A stretch of DNA of 45,748 nucleotides, from assembly GCA_015222065.1 (NCBI GenBank), contig JADFUQ010000133.1:1-45748 (forward strand), read 5' to 3'. Made by a program: the position numbers and the translations under genes. Source of the DNA: Bacteroidota bacterium (GTDB taxonomy: Bacteria; Bacteroidota; Bacteroidia; Bacteroidales; VadinHA17). Within the stretch, counting starts at the first letter, position 1. Each line of letters begins with the position of its first letter. This document shows positions 1 to 8,471 of this stretch, in pieces. The notes below the pieces were generated by a model. The model was given only the letters and a program-made list of their open reading frames with translations. It was not told where the DNA came from and did not search any database.

Positions 1-1488
1 AATTCGCAAGATAAAAACAGCGAAGATCAATCAGGTCAGAAATTAATTAACCGGAGGCCCGCAGTTGCAGGTCAGTTTTACCCTGGTAACAAAAAAGATC
101 TGGAAAAAATGCTGGAAGAATTTTTCAGCAAAGCAACTCACAGAGTGAGTAAAGAGCATGTTGCTGCAATCCTCTCCCCTCATGCAGGTTACGTGTTTTC
201 CGGTGAAGTGGCAGCAAACTCTTTTAAGCAGCTTGATCAGGATAAAAAGTATAAAAATATATTTATTATCGGTTCAAGCCACAGAACCATGTTTAGTGGT
301 GCATCAATTTATAATATTGGTAATTATATTACACCTTTAGGTGAAGTAAAGGTTGATATACCATTGGCAACCAAATTAATAAATGGCTACGATGTTTTCT
401 CTTTTAATGGGAATGCCCACATGGGTGAACATAGTCTGGAGGTACAGTTACCCTTTCTGCAGTATTGGCTAAACAACGAATTTTCAATAGTTCCTATTGT
501 ACTGGGAACTCAAGCTCCCAAAACAGCAGAAAAGATTGCTAATGCTCTAAAACCCTACTTCACAGACGAAAACCTATTTGTTATCAGTACTGACTTCTCA
601 CATTACCCGTCACAGGAAAATGCTGTAAAAATTGATAATAGCACTGCTGATGCTGTAATATCAAACTCACCACGGGAACTTCTCAAAACAATTGGTAAAC
701 TTGAAACAGAAGGTATAGAAAACCTGGCAACCTGTATGTGTGGTTGGACATCTGTACTTACATTAATGTATATGACTGAGGCAGATAAGAATATAACATA
801 CCATAAGGTTAAATACATGAATTCAGGGGATACTCCTTATGGCGATTCTTCGCGTGTGGTAGGATATTGGTCAATTTGTGTTACAAGCAGTGCAACAAAA
901 AAGGGAGAAACAGGTTTTTCTCTTGACAAGAAAGACAAAGTTGAATTGTTAAATATTGCCCGTAAAACAATTGAAACTTTTATCAAAGAAGGAAAAATAA
1001 AAAATATCGAAGATGAAGAATTTTCCAATCGGCTCCATACCCTTACCGGAGCATTTGTTACCCTTCACTCAAGCGATGGTAAGCTAAGAGGATGTATGGG
1101 ACAGTTTGATGCTAAAAAACCATTATATAAAGTGATTTCTGAAATGGCAATTGCCGCTTCATCCAAGGATTACAGGTTTAAACCGGTTACACCTGATGAA
1201 CTGGCAGGTGTTGAACTGGAGATATCTGTTCTTACTCCAATAAAAAGGATTCAATCCATAGATGAGATAACTCTTGGAAAACATGGTATCTATATTATAA
1301 AAGATGGTAGATCAGGTACTTTCCTTCCACAAGTCGCTGATGAATCCGGTTGGACAAAAGAGGAGTTCCTGGGCTATTGTGCCAGGAATAAAGCCCGGAT
1401 TGGCTGGGATGGCTGGAAAGATGCTGAAATTTACATCTATGAAGCTATTGTATTCTCGGAAAGAGAGATGAGGAGATTGAAGAAGTAG
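1..1488 (+). CDS. MEMO1-AMMECR1 fusion (AmmeMemoRadiSam proteins B and A), 5' truncated
   Basis: Two families of unknown biochemical function are fused here. The reading frame is open to base 1, so the gene begins outside the window; the internal ATG at 109 is not the start, because the MEMO opening motif RRPAVAGQFYPG lies at bases 52-87. The MEMO part shows SPHAGYVFSGE, HMGEHSLEVQLPFLQ, STDFSHYP and TCMCGWTS, which supply the conserved His/His/Cys set. The AMMECR1 part follows with LRGCMGQF, RFKPV and LEISVLTP. Upstream of the MEMO motif are at least 17 residues (NSQDKNSEDQSGQKLIN), a polar linker of the kind seen after a lipoprotein or signal peptide; export is therefore an inference. The radical SAM partner lies at 4682. 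The fusion identity is secure; the reaction is unknown. Confidence 0.92.
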   Translation, partial: NSQDKNSEDQSGQKLINRRPAVAGQFYPGNKKDLEKMLEEFFSKATHRVSKEHVAAILSPHAGYVFSGEVAANSFKQLDQDKKYKNIFIIGSSHRTMFSGASIYNIGNYITPLGEVKVDIPLATKLINGYDVFSFNGNAHMGEHSLEVQLPFLQYWLNNEFSIVPIVLGTQAPKTAEKIANALKPYFTDENLFVISTDFSHYPSQENAVKIDNSTADAVISNSPRELLKTIGKLETEGIENLATCMCGWTSVLTLMYMTEADKNITYHKVKYMNSGDTPYGDSSRVVGYWSICVTSSATKKGETGFSLDKKDKVELLNIARKTIETFIKEGKIKNIEDEEFSNRLHTLTGAFVTLHSSDGKLRGCMGQFDAKKPLYKVISEMAIAASSKDYRFKPVTPDELAGVELEISVLTPIKRIQSIDEITLGKHGIYIIKDGRSGTFLPQVADESGWTKEEFLGYCARNKARIGWDGWKDAEIYIYEAIVFSEREMRRLKK

Positions 1489-2099
1489 GATGCAAGATAC
1501 AGGATACAGGATGCAAGATACAGGATGCAAGAAATAAGAAAAGAAGAAGTAAAAAGAAAATTGTGAATGTAAAATTATGAATAAAGAATGTAGAATTAAA
1601 TTTATTTTACATTTATAATTGAACCACAGTGAATTATGCTCCTACCCTGATGAAATGTTTTCGTACCTCAAATTTTACCCTGTGAAACCCCAGCATAGCT
1701 GGGAGCAACAACGTTGCTGTTTCACAGGGTGAACAGGGCAAGCGTCGCATTTCACGTGGCAGGCATTCTAAATTCAAAATTTATCCTATTTTGAATATCG
1801 AATACCGATTAACGATTTTTGATTTAAGAACTACTTCTAAATTAATTAACGTTTCGCAGATAAATTAATTACTTATATTATAATTAGTTACAAAAATAAG
1901 AATTTGCATAAAGTACATAATATCAATTAAGTACACAATTCCATTTTTAAAATATCGAACAAGGAACACCGATTTTAGATTTAAGAAATAATCATGGTTT
2001 AATAAGAACTTCAAAATTCGTTATTCGTTAATCGATATTCATTATTCATCTTAACAACTGTATATTAGTGTGTTGTCAAGTGCAAAACTTTAGTTAATA
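1489..2099. other. 611-bp gene-free stretch: tandem words, T-shaped palindrome, degenerate repeats
   Basis: No credible reading frame is present. Bases 1489-1532 are a degenerate tandem array of the words GATGCAAGATACAG and GATACAG directly after the stop codon. Bases 1677-1730 form a perfect three-armed palindrome (separate entry). Bases 1793-1830 and 1951-1987 are degenerate direct copies of an AT-rich 38-bp word containing ATATCGAA, CCGATT and GATTTAAGAA, and 2012-2049 carries a related word in the opposite orientation. I see no convincing promoter for the gene starting at 2100. Confidence 0.7.
1677..1730. repeat. 54-bp T-shaped (three-way junction) perfect palindrome
   Basis: The outer stem ACCCTGTGAAAC (1677-1688) pairs with GTTTCACAGGGT (1719-1730) over 12 bp without mismatch. 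Inside it two hairpins abut with no unpaired bases between them: CCCAGC-ATA-GCTGGG (1689-1703) and AGCAAC-AAC-GTTGCT (1704-1718), each 6 bp with a triloop. The geometry resembles REP/BIME-type extragenic palindromes or a viral T-shaped terminal hairpin. No copy was noticed elsewhere in the window, and no transposase is nearby. Confidence 0.9.
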
Positions 2100-4610
2100 A
2101 TGTCCACTCCCTACCCTCTTATATTAATTGGAATTATCGCCCTGATATTGTACCTGTTAAGTTTTACTATATCAAGAATAGGTTTAATTAGAACTGTTAC
2201 TCACCGGAAGATATGGAATGTCCTTCTGGGTTTGTCGTTTTTTAGTACTGCTTTGCTTGGTATTATCATGGCTGTCCGGATCAATTACAAGCTGGATATT
2301 CCATGGGTTGATCAAATAACAATACTCCATGTCTATTTTGGCATAAGCATGGTGATAATAGCAATATTTCATTTCACATGGCATATTAAATACTATACGG
2401 ACATTTTCAGGAGAAAAAAAAATAAGGTAGAAAAGCAGGATGACCTGAAATACCTTGATAACTCAGGGTTTACCGCGACAGGAGCTAAGGGTTTCTCTAT
2501 ATCATTGATAGTGTTAGGGATTACCTCGCTTGTAACCCAGATAATTATTCTCAGGGAATTTTTATCTGTTTTCATGGGCAATGAGCTGGTAATTGGTATT
2601 ATACTGGCAAACTGGATGCTGATTACGGGATTTGGATCATATTTGGGAAGGTTTATGAATCGTATCAAAGATCCTGTTCGTATATCATTTATTGCACAGA
2701 TAGGTATGGGGATACTTCCATTCCTTACAGTCTTCTTGCTTAATTATTTGAGAAATTCTGTTTTCTTGCCCGGCAGTCTTGTGGGGGTTTTTGAAATATT
2801 TACCGCATCATTAATCTTGTTACTTCCTTTTTGCTTATTATCAGGGTTTTTGTTTACTTTTCTAGCTTCCGGCCTTTCCTTTGTTCACAAAAGTAAACGC
2901 ATTGATATTGCCTATGCACTGGAGTCTTCAGGAAGTCTTATTGGTGGAATATTGTTCAGCTTTATTCTGGTGTTCCTGATATCACCCTTCCAGATACTAA
3001 CCATTTTGCTTATTTTGAATCTTTTCGTTGCTGTATGGGTCAATTTTTTTTACAGGAAAACCATTGTATTAATACTATTCCTTATCATTGTATTATTGGT
3101 TTCCGGAATTACCTTTTTCACCCCTTTCGACCGGTTTGTTAAAGGTTTTCTCTATCCAAACCAGGAGATTGTATTCCTAAAAGAAACACCTTATGGGAAT
3201 CTGGCAGTTACAAAAACCGGTGAACAGCATAATTTCTATGAAAACCAGGTCTTATTGTTTAATACCTTGAATTTTATTGCCAATGAAGAAGCTGTTCATT
3301 ATGCAATGGTGCAGCATGAGAATCCGCAAAATATACTGGTGATATCAGGAGGAGTATCCGGAATGATGCAGGAGATTATGAAATATCCTGCTGTAAAAAA
3401 GGTTGATTATGTTGAAATTAATCCCTGGCTTGTAAAGACAGGTGAGAAATATTATGACAAACTAAGAGACAATAGAATACATGTCTATAACAAAGATGTC
3501 AGGTTGTTTCTTAAAAACCATCGTGGTCCCTATGACATTATTCTGGCAAACCTGCCTCCACCTTCAACCGCCCATTTGAACAGGTATTATACAATAGAAT
3601 TTTTTCGTCAGCTTGAATCCTGTTTGTCAGATACTGGTGTTTTATCAATTGATCTTCCCTCCACAGGTAATTATGCAGGTGAGGAAGCAAATATTGTAAA
3701 TTCTTTGATATTCAATACTCTAAAACAAGTTTTTAGAAATGTGATATTGATCCCGGGTGAAAAAAACTTTTACGTGGCATCAAATAATGTTGTTGGTTTT
3801 GATATTACCGGTAAAATTGAAGAAAAGGGTATTGAAAACCAATACGTTAACCTATATTATCTTGATGACACCCTGCTTAAGCACCGGAGTAATTTCTTTA
3901 TGAATCAATTAGATAAGGATGCCGGTATTAACAGGGACTTTGAACCTTCTGCCTATTTTCACCAGATATCTTCCTGGCTAAGCTATTATCAGCTTAATAT
4001 GTGGTTATTTGGCGGAATTACATTGATAGTGATGCTATTATTAATGAGTCGTTTAAATATTCTACAGGCAGGTATGTTTACCGGGGGGTTTGCTGCTTCA
4101 TCATCGGAAGTGATCCTGCTTATTGCTTTTCAGATAATTTATGGGTATGTGTACCTTATGTCCGGTGTTATTATTGCCGTTTTTATGGGTGGTCTTACCC
4201 TTGGGGCATTAACCGGTCGCAGAATAATTAAAGCTCCCGGACCGGTAAGTTACAGTTGTAATCAATTGGCAATCGGGTTATTTGCACTATTATTACCCCT
4301 GGTCATTAATGTTGCAAAACCCATTACCGGTCACCCGTTTATTGTTCATTTAATCTTTTTTATTCTGATGATTGTCATCTCCTTCCTGGTCGGAACTTTG
4401 TTTTCTATGGGCAGCCGTATACAGAAAGGGAATGTTCCTGCTGTTACTTCCGGTATCTATAGCGCTGATCTGGCAGGTTCAGCATTCGGAGCCTTGATAG
4501 TGTCTGCTTTTCTTATACCACTTATCGGACTGGCTAAAGTTTCAATTGTAGTAGGACTGTTAAATATTTTATTCGCCGGTATAACATGGGTGAACAGGAA
4601 GAAGTTGTAA
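2100..4610 (+). CDS. Membrane-embedded spermidine-synthase-like protein
   Basis: This 836-residue protein has about three N-terminal membrane segments, a second membrane block around residues 130-350, a soluble spermidine-synthase-like Rossmann domain at about 360-610 and a C-terminal membrane block at about 645-830. The nucleotide-binding loop appears as SGGVSGMMQEI and the acidic strand as DYVEINP. The region that carries the catalytic aspartates in true SpeE reads ANLPPPSTAHLNRYYT, the version typical of the fused membrane family, so a normal aminopropyltransferase reaction is doubtful. It sits between the MEMO-AMMECR1 fusion and the radical SAM gene on the same strand, suggesting shared function. 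The start ATG is followed directly by a membrane segment. No symbol is given because the substrate is unknown. Confidence 0.88.
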   Translation: MSTPYPLILIGIIALILYLLSFTISRIGLIRTVTHRKIWNVLLGLSFFSTALLGIIMAVRINYKLDIPWVDQITILHVYFGISMVIIAIFHFTWHIKYYTDIFRRKKNKVEKQDDLKYLDNSGFTATGAKGFSISLIVLGITSLVTQIIILREFLSVFMGNELVIGIILANWMLITGFGSYLGRFMNRIKDPVRISFIAQIGMGILPFLTVFLLNYLRNSVFLPGSLVGVFEIFTASLILLLPFCLLSGFLFTFLASGLSFVHKSKRIDIAYALESSGSLIGGILFSFILVFLISPFQILTILLILNLFVAVWVNFFYRKTIVLILFLIIVLLVSGITFFTPFDRFVKGFLYPNQEIVFLKETPYGNLAVTKTGEQHNFYENQVLLFNTLNFIANEEAVHYAMVQHENPQNILVISGGVSGMMQEIMKYPAVKKVDYVEINPWLVKTGEKYYDKLRDNRIHVYNKDVRLFLKNHRGPYDIILANLPPPSTAHLNRYYTIEFFRQLESCLSDTGVLSIDLPSTGNYAGEEANIVNSLIFNTLKQVFRNVILIPGEKNFYVASNNVVGFDITGKIEEKGIENQYVNLYYLDDTLLKHRSNFFMNQLDKDAGINRDFEPSAYFHQISSWLSYYQLNMWLFGGITLIVMLLLMSRLNILQAGMFTGGFAASSSEVILLIAFQIIYGYVYLMSGVIIAVFMGGLTLGALTGRRIIKAPGPVSYSCNQLAIGLFALLLPLVINVAKPITGHPFIVHLIFFILMIVISFLVGTLFSMGSRIQKGNVPAVTSGIYSADLAGSAFGALIVSAFLIPLIGLAKVSIVVGLLNILFAGITWVNRKKL

Positions 4611-4681
4611 GTTTTTTGTAATTTTATATGCTGATTGGATACATGTGTATCGGAGAATTTAAAATATTAAGGAAATAAAGA

Positions 4682-5839
4682 ATGAAAAAGTCGAAAAAGA
4701 AGATCAGTAAAAGACAATTTGTTAAATATACGCTGGCAGGTATGGGTGGTATCGCCTGTGCTCCAATAACCTGTTTGTTTGGGAAGAATCCGGTTTCAGC
4801 AATAGCTAATCCTCCTGAAAAACTGTGGAAATGGAGTCGTGAGGCAATGTATTACACTACCACTCCACGTGGATTAAAATGTTTACGATGTCCTAATGAA
4901 TGCACAATAAAAGAGGGTGAACTGGGCGATTGTCACAATCATCTAAACTATAATGGCAAATTATACACTATAGCATATGGAAATCCATGTGCTGTGCATA
5001 TTGACCCTATAGAGAAAAAACCACTAATGCATTTTTTACCCGAAAGCAGTGCTTTCTCAATTGCAACTGCCGGCTGTAATCTTGCATGCCTTAACTGCCA
5101 GAACTGGTCCATTTCACAGAAAAGTCCACGTGAAACCCGGAATTTTGACCTGATGCCCGATAAAGTTGTTGAAGCAGCTATTGAAAGTGACTGTGAATCA
5201 ATAGCATATACATATTCTGAACCCATTACATTTTATGAATACGCTTACGATACTGCAATATTGGCACGTAATGCAGGAATTAAAAATGTAATGATTTCAG
5301 CAGGGTATATAAATGAAGAACCCATGAGAAAACTAGCCCGTGTTATGGATGCTGCCAATATTGATCTTAAGTCGTTTAAAGACAGTATATACCTGAAGTT
5401 AAATGCAGGAAAACTTGAACCTATACTCCGTACTCTTAAAATTTTGAATGAGGAGGGTGTATGGTTAGAAATTACAAATCTAGTTATCCCGGGTTGGACT
5501 GATGATTTCGATATGATCAGGGAAATGTGCGATTGGCTTTATGAAAATGGATTTGCTGATAATCCATTACATTTCAGCCGTTTTCAGCCGTTATATAAAC
5601 TAACACAACTACCTCCTACTCCGCTATCATCTTTAACTAAGGCAAGGAAAATTGCACTGGATGCAGGAATTAAATATGTTTATATTGGTAACGTTCCGGG
5701 AACAGAAGCCGAAAATACTTTCTGCCCTAATTGTCATAAAACTCTTATTAAACGACGTGGTTATATAATTTTGTCGAATCATATTAAAAACGGGAAGTGC
5801 GAGTATTGCAATGAACCCATTGCTGGAGTATGGGAATAA
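4682..5839 (+). CDS. amrS: AmmeMemoRadiSam system radical SAM protein with Tat-like leader
   Basis: This 385-residue protein belongs to the PFL-activase-like radical SAM family paired with MEMO/AMMECR1. C132, C136 and C139 (GCNLACLNC) form the CxxxCxxC site for the SAM-binding [4Fe-4S] cluster. An N-terminal cysteine set (C67, C70, C74, C84; CLRCPNEC, then GDC) is characteristic of this family, and two further CxxC pairs (FCPNC, CEYC) lie near the C terminus. Residues 1-40 are extra relative to the usual start and read as a Tat-like leader: SKRQFVK, then a hydrophobic stretch, then an A/V-S-A region. The twin-Arg pair is Lys-Arg, a weak variant, so export is plausible but not certain. It lies 71 bp after the membrane SpeE-like gene. 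The substrate is unknown. Confidence 0.9.
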   Translation: MKKSKKKISKRQFVKYTLAGMGGIACAPITCLFGKNPVSAIANPPEKLWKWSREAMYYTTTPRGLKCLRCPNECTIKEGELGDCHNHLNYNGKLYTIAYGNPCAVHIDPIEKKPLMHFLPESSAFSIATAGCNLACLNCQNWSISQKSPRETRNFDLMPDKVVEAAIESDCESIAYTYSEPITFYEYAYDTAILARNAGIKNVMISAGYINEEPMRKLARVMDAANIDLKSFKDSIYLKLNAGKLEPILRTLKILNEEGVWLEITNLVIPGWTDDFDMIREMCDWLYENGFADNPLHFSRFQPLYKLTQLPPTPLSSLTKARKIALDAGIKYVYIGNVPGTEAENTFCPNCHKTLIKRRGYIILSNHIKNGKCEYCNEPIAGVWE

Positions 5840-5907
5840 AATAGCCCACTTCATAAGATTCAGTTATACAATTGATTATATAGAATGTAGAGACAAATCA
5901 ATTATCG

Positions 5908-6792
5908 CTAAAGTAGTATTCCCTCCTTCCAGCCTATTGTTACCAGCTTAATCTTCTCAGTATCGGCATTACCAAGTTTATGACGTGTATCAGAAAGCAA
6001 AATATGCTTTGCCGGAGGATTTAATGGCCGTTCTTCACCGAAATATTCCTTTCTTTTATTCTCCAGTATCCTTACTCCCACTGAATCAACAGCTACAGGG
6101 TCGAATCCAACGAGTAGACCGTTATATTTCCATATAAATTCTTTATTGAAATGATGTGGTCCGGTGCCGTGAAAAAGAGGCGTTAACATTACAAGAATAT
6201 TAAGCCGTGTTTTACCTGCAACCTCCGGTAATTTCCAGAGTTTAGCAAGATCGGCACATGTATCGGGGTGGTAGGTCCAGGGTTTTTTAGTAAACATAAT
6301 ATAATTCTTTATAAGAGTTCCTACACCTGACCAATTATGGGTACGCAGCGGGCGTACATTTATCAGTGCAGTGCTTTTTTGAAAAACCGGGTCTTTAAGT
6401 ATCCCACGGTCTCTGACACTGATGTTTTGCTCCCGGACACCGGCATCTAAAACCCGTTCTTTCAGTATCTCTTCCAGAGCTTCCGGCGTAGGCAGATGCT
6501 TCCACTCATTGCTTTTTATACCAACAATGTCATCGGATTTAATAATGCTCTTCCAGGCATCTGATGAGTTATTGATTCCGGTTAAGGTTGTAATTGCCTT
6601 GTCCATCATATCTGACAAAATCCTTTTGTCCGGATTACCGTCATTTTTAAGGACTTCCTTATCACGTATTAGGATCACTTCTGACTTATCTGTTCCTTTT
6701 GCAAACAGTTTTCCAGGAAATCGAAGGAAAAAACAGCCAGCTAAAGATGTAATGAATGATAATTTCAGCCAATCTCTTCTTGAATATTTCAT
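5908..6792 (-). CDS. DUF362-domain protein with Tat signal
   Basis: The 294-residue product begins MKYSRRDWLKLSF, a canonical twin-arginine motif (S-R-R-D-W-L-K), followed by a hydrophobic segment ending near FPGKLFAKG, so secretion by Tat is well supported. The body resembles DUF362 proteins: VGIKSNEW, LINVRPLRTHNWSGVGTLIKNY, and GFDPVAVDSVGV near the C terminus. DUF362 proteins often sit beside ferredoxin-like or radical SAM genes; no cysteine cluster for an Fe-S centre is visible here. It converges on amrS with a 68-bp gap and lies 11 bp downstream of the DUF6599-like gene, so those two are probably co-transcribed. The biochemical role is unknown. Confidence 0.85.
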   Translation of the reverse strand: MKYSRRDWLKLSFITSLAGCFFLRFPGKLFAKGTDKSEVILIRDKEVLKNDGNPDKRILSDMMDKAITTLTGINNSSDAWKSIIKSDDIVGIKSNEWKHLPTPEALEEILKERVLDAGVREQNISVRDRGILKDPVFQKSTALINVRPLRTHNWSGVGTLIKNYIMFTKKPWTYHPDTCADLAKLWKLPEVAGKTRLNILVMLTPLFHGTGPHHFNKEFIWKYNGLLVGFDPVAVDSVGVRILENKRKEYFGEERPLNPPAKHILLSDTRHKLGNADTEKIKLVTIGWKEGILL

Positions 6793-6803
6793 TTCGGATA
6801 GTA

Positions 6804-7634
6804 TTAATTTGATTTATCGTAAACCTGATCCAATAGCTTGATAGTTATATCTATAACAGGAGCATTAAACACCGCTGCAAATAAATCTTCTTTAACCCTG
6901 CAGCCAATCCACCGGTTATTTTTATCCCTTTTTAACATTTCATTTCCTGCATTTGGAAAAAAATATTTCGTAAAACAATTATAACCCAGACGGGCTGTAT
7001 GTTCATCAGGGTATTGCACCAATAGCAGCATGGCACGTTTCCGGGTAGTTTCGTATTTTGCCCAAACAGATCTTGTTTCTTTGGTGATATTCAGATAGTT
7101 ATCTTCAAAGAGCCAGGCAAAATAGTTAAGCCATACCGGGTGGTGAAAATAAGTCACACTTTCAGCAACAAGATTATCTTCCGGCAGCAATTTGATTACA
7201 CCTGGTATCTTTCCTTTTCCTTGAATAGATGAATCAATAATTCTGGCAAAGCCATGAATAGCTTTTGTAACTTCATCCGTTTCAGTTTGTGAAATAACCG
7301 ATACATAATACCTGTCTTTCCAGAACAGAACCGCCCCTATCAGTGTTTGGGACCCTTGTCCGAAGTTATACTCAATTTTTTCACGCGAATGTGTATATAC
7401 ACCATAAGCATTCCGGGGTTTGATCATATCAAAAACATCCACCCGGATTTCCGGTTGTCCTGGTTTAATGTAATTTCTACTAATAATTTTATTAAAGCCG
7501 TAAGATAAATAGAGTTCGGCTCCACCATCTATATAATTGTAAAGTGTTTCATTATCATAGAAATTATCTTCGTTTGCTGTTTTCCAGCCTGAATGTTCTG
7601 CAGGAAGCAATTCGGTTAACGATTTTGAGTTCAT
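6804..7634 (-). CDS. DUF6599-like protein
   Basis: This 276-residue protein has no obvious signal peptide in the reading as given. The segment TLYNYIDGGAELYLSYGF, followed by an I-x-V-x-V-F-D-M strand and PRNAYGVYTHSRE, resembles the family annotated DUF6599, which I recognise only by this pattern. The remainder is mixed alpha/beta with many aromatic residues (VTYFHHPVWLNYFAWLF). It is transcribed with the Tat-exported DUF362 gene (11-bp gap). Position near the MEMO/AMMECR1/radical SAM genes suggests the same process; no reaction can be assigned. Confidence 0.7.
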   Translation of the reverse strand: MNSKSLTELLPAEHSGWKTANEDNFYDNETLYNYIDGGAELYLSYGFNKIISRNYIKPGQPEIRVDVFDMIKPRNAYGVYTHSREKIEYNFGQGSQTLIGAVLFWKDRYYVSVISQTETDEVTKAIHGFARIIDSSIQGKGKIPGVIKLLPEDNLVAESVTYFHHPVWLNYFAWLFEDNYLNITKETRSVWAKYETTRKRAMLLLVQYPDEHTARLGYNCFTKYFFPNAGNEMLKRDKNNRWIGCRVKEDLFAAVFNAPVIDITIKLLDQVYDKSN

Positions 7635-7892: not shown

Positions 7893-8471
7893 ATGCTGAA
7901 GATAAACGATAAATGGACTTTCTTAATAAAGAACCTGCTTAAAGGGATTTTCTGGCTTGCCTTTATCCTGGTGGTTTTTGTTCTGGTTAAGAATGAAATT
8001 GATATGAAATCTTCTTCAATAATAGATTCAATTCAGGATAAGCCAATATTAGTTCTTTTTGTCTATATTTTTTCAGAAGTTGCTTTCGGGATCATCCCCC
8101 CGGAGTTTTTCATGATCTGGTCCCTTCAATACACTGAACCTTTACAATATGGTTTTATTGTATTATTGCTTGCTGTTATTTCCTACATGGCTGGTGTATT
8201 AGGTTACTGGATCGGAGTATTCTTTAACAGGACAAGGTGGTATAAATATCTTCACGAAAAGCTTTTATATAAATACCAGGGAGCAGTAAACCGGTTTGGT
8301 CTTTATTTAATTGCTATTGCCAGCATGACACCAATACCCTTCTCTGCCATTTGTATGATAGTTGGGAGCGCAAGGTATCCATTCCGAAAACTTTTATTAT
8401 ATGGCTGCATCAGATTCCTGAGGTTTGGATTATATTCATTTCTTATTTGGCATGCAAATATAATTGGGTAA
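7893..8471 (+). CDS. VTT (SNARE-associated/DedA-like) membrane protein
   Basis: This 192-residue integral membrane protein has an N-terminal helix (about residues 18-34), a conserved acidic/proline entry loop (SEVAFGIIPPEFFMIWS) and a glycine-rich helix (YMAGVLGYWIGVFFNRT). A re-entrant-like segment follows (IASMTPIPFSAICMIVGSARYPF). These features match the VTT/DedA family, which in bacteria is linked to lipid-carrier recycling and membrane homeostasis. It is slightly short for DedA (about 200-220 residues). It stands alone between divergent and convergent neighbours; its -7 box lies almost on the start codon. The substrate is unassigned. Confidence 0.8.
   Translation: MLKINDKWTFLIKNLLKGIFWLAFILVVFVLVKNEIDMKSSSIIDSIQDKPILVLFVYIFSEVAFGIIPPEFFMIWSLQYTEPLQYGFIVLLLAVISYMAGVLGYWIGVFFNRTRWYKYLHEKLLYKYQGAVNRFGLYLIAIASMTPIPFSAICMIVGSARYPFRKLLLYGCIRFLRFGLYSFLIWHANIIG

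Follow-up and report, generated by a model that had tools for sequence, protein, structure and literature searches.

A putative extracytoplasmic AmmeMemoRadiSam variant encoded in a conserved operon with a SpeE-like membrane protein

Composition and conservation of the operon

We analyzed a stretch of 45,748 nucleotides (the window) from a Bacteroidota bacterium, which corresponds to one whole contig (JADFUQ010000133.1; C456 in our numbering) of a fragmented metagenome-assembled genome (MAG) of 612 contigs. At its left end lie genes for a MEMO-AMMECR1 fusion protein, a SpeE-like membrane protein and AmrS, a radical SAM (S-adenosylmethionine) enzyme, followed by genes for a DUF362 and a DUF6599 protein. 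An envelope-located AmmeMemoRadiSam system made up of these five had been proposed (the original prediction), and open reading frame (ORF) and profile searches recovered all five genes at the coordinates it gave. Comparison of related loci indicates that the MEMO-AMMECR1, SpeE-like and AmrS genes are a conserved three-gene operon, kept together in Bacteroidota and many other phyla, and that this operon probably encodes an extracytoplasmic variant of AmmeMemoRadiSam. By the same comparison the putative variant is both new and widespread.

Profile matches identify each of the three products. The MEMO-AMMECR1 fusion scored 258 bits against TIGR04336 (cut-off 26) and 155 bits against TIGR04335 (cut-off 99), and AmrS scored 367 bits against TIGR04337 (cut-off 220) with 63 residues lying ahead of the match. 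The SpeE-like protein matched PF01564 with an E value of 4e-17. The radical-SAM motif of AmrS, CNLACLNC (CxxxCxxC), is intact, with C132, C136 and C139 invariant in 24 sequences. The motif and the invariant residues that flank it are retained in AmrS proteins with and without an N-terminal leader alike, and additional Cys pairs toward the N- and C-terminal ends of AmrS are invariant. PMC7159879 cites Burroughs et al. 2019 for the same Memo-Ammecr1-radical-SAM domain trio.

For the comparison, AmrS genes were collected with the AmrS domain model from relatives and from an even draw over the phylum. Loci of 15–20 kb were taken around most of these genes, picked blind to their neighbors with the leader and leaderless lengths in view, and leader classes were assigned by simple rules; for all loci, note that MAG contigs may be chimeric. 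A SpeE-like gene lay within 7 kb of AmrS in 24 of 26 loci with a leader on AmrS compared with 1 of 54 leaderless loci (Fisher p 5e-17), and a leader was found on MEMO in 20 of 20 cases with leader-bearing AmrS compared with 1 of 14 with leaderless AmrS (p 1.5e-8), both p values being optimistic because the loci are phylogenetically related. The sole exception among the drawn loci was L065, in which a leaderless second AmrS is the fourth gene of an otherwise exported-type operon; at L065:318-2489 a tandem AmrS pair, one with and one without a leader, stands beside leader-bearing MEMO and SpeE-like genes. Addition of 80 named loci brought the counts of SpeE present/absent to 69/27 for leader-bearing and 4/57 for leaderless AmrS, and those of MEMO with/without leader to 54/1 and 3/13, respectively. 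The single 'leaderless' MEMO beside a leader-bearing AmrS (L153) is cut by the edge of its locus. Two Omnitrophota loci also depart from the pattern, with a leaderless AmrS and a nearby SpeE-like gene on the opposite strand (L148:5947-9333 and L158:5974-9787). In L058 there is no SpeE gene and no leader on either MEMO or AmrS. MEMO-SpeE-AmrS was the commonest gene order (37 of the 69 leader loci with SpeE), and another 14 of the 69 had SpeE-AmrS with no recognized MEMO.

Both types of AmrS can occur together, 17 genomes holding a leader-bearing and a leaderless form. A leaderless AmrS gene, truncated at a contig end, is also present in the genome of the window (L040:7583-8068, on contig C363 of genome G000). 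A single MEMO gene was found there, so the leaderless AmrS may lack a MEMO of its own. In a quick, midpoint-rooted tree of the AmrS core domain, the leader forms fell in one branch (Shimodaira-Hasegawa-like approximate likelihood ratio test 91) with a few leaderless sequences inside, and the leaderless label required 5 changes on the tree compared with 47 for shuffled labels. Among named bacterial loci, leader-bearing AmrS was found in Bacteroidota, Ignavibacteriota, Thermodesulfobacteriota, Myxococcota, Nitrospirota, Omnitrophota, KSB1, Planctomycetota, Verrucomicrobiota and Stahlbacteria, and it was also present in MAGs filed as Altiarchaeota, Aenigmatarchaeota and Woesearchaeota. Export-type leaders on AmrS and MEMO were seen in more than 10 phyla besides Bacteroidota. 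Nearly all of the carriers are MAGs; the only named cultured strain that we noted is Mangrovibacterium marinum DSM 28823, whose locus (L082) holds MEMO, SpeE-like and AmrS genes.

Table 1. Positions of the operon and adjoining features in the window.
Feature	Position	Strand	Basis
MEMO-AMMECR1 fusion (AmmeMemoRadiSam proteins B+A), 5' end cut by contig edge	1-1488	+	PF01875/PF01871, TIGR04336/TIGR04335
Inter-gene gap (611 bp) with interspersed repeats	1489-2099	.	Repeat matches in own genome; spacing in relatives
SpeE-like membrane protein	2100-4610	+	PF01564, positive-inside profile, AlphaFold2 model, structure comparison
AmrS (radical SAM enzyme), Tat-like leader of KR type	4682-5839	+	TIGR04337; leader conservation; CNLACLNC motif
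Tat-like signal peptide of AmrS (MKKSKKKISKRQFVKYTLAGMGGIACAPITCLFGKNPVSA)	4682-4801	+	Conserved in relatives; no TIGR01409 or PF10518 match
DUF362 protein with RR leader, convergent neighbor, non-core	5908-6792	-	PF04015
DUF6599 protein, neighbor, non-core	6804-7634	-	PF20244
VTT-domain membrane protein	7893-8471

Leaders on AmrS and MEMO-AMMECR1

The leader of the window's AmrS (ISKRQFVKYTLAGMGGIAC) has the form [KR]RxF followed by a hydrophobic stretch, which resembles the signals used for twin-arginine translocation (Tat). In close relatives KRQF is followed by a moderately hydrophobic segment (KD15 about 1.6), and each of 16 relatives (56–85% identity) retains R11 and F13. The strict pattern, [RK][RK]xF plus a hydrophobic stretch, was present in 83 of 96 leader-class AmrS proteins, a figure with some circularity, since the class had been set by a looser version of this motif, and in 0 of 59 leaderless AmrS proteins and 37 of 869 other ORFs; its KR form occurred in 8 of 869 unrelated ORFs. 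The Lys-Arg leader claimed for AmrS in the original prediction is thus a real feature, conserved across relatives and rare elsewhere. Of the leader-bearing AmrS N-termini, 23 of 77 matched the Tat-signal model TIGR01409, compared with 0 of 39 leaderless ones, and the window's own leader matched neither TIGR01409 nor PF10518. A KR pair works in natural and mutant Tat signals, for example in Salmonella TtrB (PMC1182353).

The leaders of AmrS vary by phylum and may be of RR, KR, RK or Sec type. KR prevails in most Bacteroidota and mainly RR elsewhere, and in several Omnitrophota the AmrS leader is Sec-type and the leader on MEMO is still present. Note that the Tat versus Sec split made by our classifier is unreliable, the Omnitrophota loci L138, L144, L151, L157 and L159 being called Tat and appearing Sec-like by eye. 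Different signals that would give the same location are hard to explain unless location matters. A tatC gene lies within the AmrS cluster itself in four loci, one bacterial and three of archaeal MAGs (L106, L108, L137 and L143; E at most 4e-56). The genome of the window has tatC; in a check of 27 Bacteroidota genomes from the same sample, 25 had it.

The start of the MEMO gene is missing from the window, base 1 of which is codon 22, so that exactly 21 codons are cut off by the contig edge. This register was obtained by alignment of window bases 1-87 to bases 244-330 of the same-genus locus L068, in which the gene starts at 181. In same-genus genomes (about 90% protein identity) the 21 codons encode MKIINSILLIVMFSIFSQSSC, followed by NSQ... 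as at the start of the window. Since these relatives encode a signal peptide in the 21 codons, MEMO would carry one in this genus; the leader is visible in L068, L069 and L072 and is shortened in L073. The polar segment that had been described as a linker before MEMO corresponds to the start of the mature protein. The MEMO lipobox is good in some relatives (VTSC, VIAC, LGNC) and poor in the genus of the window (QSSC or QNFC), with the Cys deleted in L073. H49, H81 and C244 are the iron ligands of human MEMO1 (PMC11081632). When the L068 protein was aligned to MEMO1, the PHAGY, SHR/SHH and DFSH/DFCH stretches were kept and the third iron ligand fell outside the alignment.

Extension of the window leftwards to the MEMO start was not achieved: a search of the other contigs of the same MAG did not find it, and contig C548, which carries the upstream gene, stops short of the MEMO start, leaving the missing stretch as an assembly gap. 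The spacing between the MEMO and SpeE-like genes, 611 bp here, is 16 to 136 bp in L068, L072 and L073. The interspersed repeats between the two genes (1600-2100 of the window) have matches at more than 50 positions of the genome, several of them at contig ends, and are a likely cause of the fragmentation of the MAG.

Predicted structure of the SpeE-like membrane protein

The SpeE-like protein combines a three-helix transmembrane N-terminal block (residues 7-95), a SpeE-fold domain (residues ~343-628) and a core of MFS-type transmembrane helices (residues ~127-318 and ~654-831, plus two extra helices). An AlphaFold2 model built from 12 sequences had a predicted local distance difference test score (pLDDT) of 83.9. 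The predicted SpeE domain superimposed on the aminopropyltransferase 1uir with a Z score of 29.5 and a root-mean-square deviation of 2.5 over 267 residues. The predicted helices, in two six-helix halves, matched the MFS proteins SV2A (Z 27.0), the POT protein 6ei3 (Z 22.2, 371 residues) and GLUT3 (Z 19.5). The model has 14 helices around the core. The SpeE domain is inserted between two additional helices that follow the sixth helix of the MFS fold, at the place where POT proteins carry an extra helix pair. An insertion at that site would put the domain outside, as does the positive-inside profile, in which the positive charges alternate such that the SpeE domain falls on the outer face. We therefore predict a 14-helix MFS-type fold with a SpeE domain that faces outside.

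The SpeE domain differs from solved spermidine synthases at the residues for aminopropyl transfer: in the window GGVSG replaces GGGDGG and NLPPP replaces D-x-x-[DE]-P. Of 68 SpeE-like proteins just 8 have D at the position of the first transfer Asp, and Ser, Gly or Ala mostly takes the place of the Asp in GGGDGG. The acidic residues of the nucleoside/adenosine site are kept (E439 in 68 of 68, D466 in 67 of 68). From the retention of this site and the loss of most transfer residues we infer that the domain binds a nucleoside or SAM without aminopropyl transfer. A role for the protein in the handling of SAM or nucleosides can be offered as a tentative assignment. We rejected its identification as a spermidine synthase, since the aminopropyl-transfer residues are mostly lost. 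A literature search on membrane-fused spermidine synthases returned nothing on point.

The N-terminal block may provide a route for electrons. Its H77 and H91 are invariant and H35 is nearly so, and in L090 the block is encoded as a separate gene. Its weak Pfam matches were in large part to families of cytochrome-b type, namely DUF4405 (11 of 23 members, E up to 1), Ni_hydr_CYTB (5), Ferric_reduct (4) and Cytochrom_B561 (3), which belong to one Pfam clan. An H-x3-G-x9-H spacing is common to the block and to DUF4405 proteins of the phylum, and a profile comparison of the two gave P 3e-4 over 83 columns, where six control segments taken from the same membrane protein gave 0.05-0.23. We offer heme binding by the block as a hypothesis; that the block supplies the electrons is possible but rather doubtful. 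A second candidate for an electron feed is a membrane gene of the DsbD_2 family, which lies close to leader-bearing AmrS and MEMO in eight mostly Omnitrophota loci (L133, L138, L144, L151, L152, L154, L157 and L159), its family membership being confirmed in L157 and L159. The tatC and DsbD neighbors, the leaderless paralogue in the same genomes and the loss of SpeE transfer residues all go beyond the original prediction.

Location, mechanism and relation to known systems

The need for SAM and low-potential electrons is the reason why radical SAM enzymes are regarded as cytoplasmic. For the system described here, a location outside the cytoplasm is nonetheless highly likely, and export is well supported by comparison, although we infer it from leaders and gene neighborhoods. 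The leaders and the conservation of the operon also support the core of the original prediction, namely that the AmmeMemoRadiSam system is located in the envelope, with a SpeE-like partner in the membrane and an export-type AmrS. None of the observations named as refuting it was made: relatives have a leader on MEMO and keep the genes adjacent, and the AmrS leader is conserved. In the most likely sequence of events, AmrS would fold and receive its iron-sulfur clusters in the cytoplasm and then leave through Tat, with a Sec-type leader doing the equivalent job in Omnitrophota. Outside, it would work with the secreted, sometimes lipoprotein-type MEMO-AMMECR1 protein on a substrate in the envelope or periplasm. 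In the SpeE-like protein an MFS-type transporter core would display a spermidine-synthase fold at the outer membrane surface of the cytoplasmic membrane's outside, where the SpeE domain may bind SAM or a SAM-derived nucleoside, either to supply SAM or to remove 5'-deoxyadenosine or methionine. Electrons would cross the membrane through the cytochrome-b-like N-terminal block in many Bacteroidota and through the adjacent DsbD-like protein in Omnitrophota. That bacteria and some archaea have such a complete radical-SAM pathway outside the cytoplasm, with its own SAM or nucleoside carrier and transmembrane electron feed and acting on the envelope, we judge to have somewhat less than an even chance.

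Several observations weigh against an exported, working enzyme. Neither SAM nor low-potential electrons, both of which radical SAM enzymes require, is known to be available outside the cytoplasm. In addition to the optimism of the p values, 27 of 96 leader loci have no SpeE gene, some of these being at contig ends, and four leaderless AmrS genes have a SpeE-like gene nearby, making the linkage strong and not absolute. The N-terminal block is fused in a minority of SpeE-like proteins (27 of 68, in Bacteroidota), its Pfam scores, where shown, lie under the curated cut-offs, and a fold search with the block alone gave only generic, uninformative helix-bundle matches, E. coli hydrogenase-1 cytochrome b being at Z 6.0-6.5 and not above background. 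The window's leader goes unmatched by the Tat models, and of the RR/KR proteins predicted in B. subtilis, few turned out to depend on Tat (PMC1182353). The want of a known outside source of SAM and electrons would be met if AmrS were exported and did not turn over, either acting once as a preloaded enzyme or providing MEMO-AMMECR1 with an iron-sulfur, metal or electron-transfer subunit. The iron bound by human MEMO1 (PMC11081632) and the extra invariant Cys pairs of AmrS fit such a role, which we consider unlikely given that CxxxCxxC and the surrounding invariant residues are retained with and without a leader and that the conserved SpeE-like partner retains a nucleoside-type pocket. The leader might instead be a membrane anchor or regulatory N-terminus that leaves the catalytic part of AmrS in the cytoplasm, as the KR motif of most Bacteroidota, the unrecognized leader of the window and its modest hydrophobicity would allow. 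By the positive-inside rule, however, basic residues before the hydrophobic stretch place the rest of AmrS outside; the MEMO and AmrS leaders also go together, tatC clusters with AmrS, and other phyla have canonical RR or Sec-type leaders, all of which render an anchor distinctly improbable. Least probable by far is an ordinary cytoplasmic AmmeMemoRadiSam beside an ordinary spermidine synthase, with leaders that arose by chance or from wrong starts. The family models do not extend over the leader and the SpeE domain does have the fold of a spermidine synthase, but leader residues are invariant in distant relatives and rare in other ORFs, the transfer residues are lost, the strong co-occurrence contradicts it, and the leaderless AmrS paralogue in the same genomes provides a contrast.

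The original prediction also counted the DUF362 protein (E 6e-7, leader SRRDWLK) and the DUF6599 protein (E 4e-33) as members of the system. A five-gene system with both as working parts draws support from the position of the RR-leader DUF362 gene, which adjoins AmrS in the window, in the same-genus loci L067, L068 and L069, and in the KSB1 loci L130 and L149, where it is directly upstream of AmrS in the same direction. DUF6599 was also found near an exported-type AmrS in L061. Both genes are absent, however, from the other three of the six same-genus loci (L066, L072 and L073) and from nearly all other leader loci, and the window has them on the other strand, convergent to the three-gene operon. 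A five-gene system is accordingly quite unlikely; we rejected the two proteins as core parts on their distribution and treat DUF362 as an occasional accessory. A VTT-domain gene directly follows AmrS in L066, L072 and L073, the same-genus genomes without DUF362 and DUF6599.

If the three-gene operon does encode an extracytoplasmic system, radical-SAM chemistry would take place outside the cytoplasm, and a conserved exported radical SAM enzyme would mean either that SAM and electrons are provided by the cell beyond its membrane or that the enzyme follows another rule. MEMO and AMMECR1 are conserved proteins with links to human disease and no agreed molecular role. The search for their function would be narrowed, as many genomes contain both leader-bearing and leaderless AmrS and offer an internal comparison, and a substrate in the envelope or periplasm, open to direct search, is to be expected for the outside version. 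The main earlier analysis of the family is that of Burroughs et al. 2019 (J Biol Chem 294:10211), on Memo-Ammecr1-radical-SAM contexts. In the literature found, no biochemical activity is described for the AmmeMemoRadiSam family, and a search for a Tat-exported radical SAM enzyme turned up none.

Among known systems, AmmeMemoRadiSam (TIGR04335/TIGR04336/TIGR04337) is represented here by the same three families, all above the curated cut-offs and encoded by adjacent genes, with the radical-SAM and accessory Cys motifs intact. Unlike the ordinary system, the operon of the window has leaders on AmrS and on the fused MEMO-AMMECR1 protein, and its third partner is a membrane SpeE-like protein. The closest solved relatives of AmrS by sequence are structures of pyruvate formate-lyase activating enzyme (PDB 3c8f and 8fo0; E about 1e-8 to 1e-7), a cytoplasmic glycyl-radical activase. 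That enzyme lacks a MEMO or AMMECR1 partner, and AmrS differs from it further by additional Cys pairs and a leader. The Lys-Arg pair in place of Arg-Arg is shared with the natural Tat signal of Salmonella TtrB, a tetrathionate reductase subunit (PMC1182353). The fused MFS/spermidine synthase NF037959 and the polyamine aminopropyltransferase NF002956 likewise combine membrane helices with a SpeE-fold domain and match the SpeE-like protein over part of the sequence, its scores being below both curated cut-offs (26.5 of 40 and 149 of 472, respectively). Unlike these two families, the SpeE-like protein has lost most of its transfer residues and in Bacteroidota has an extra N-terminal block.

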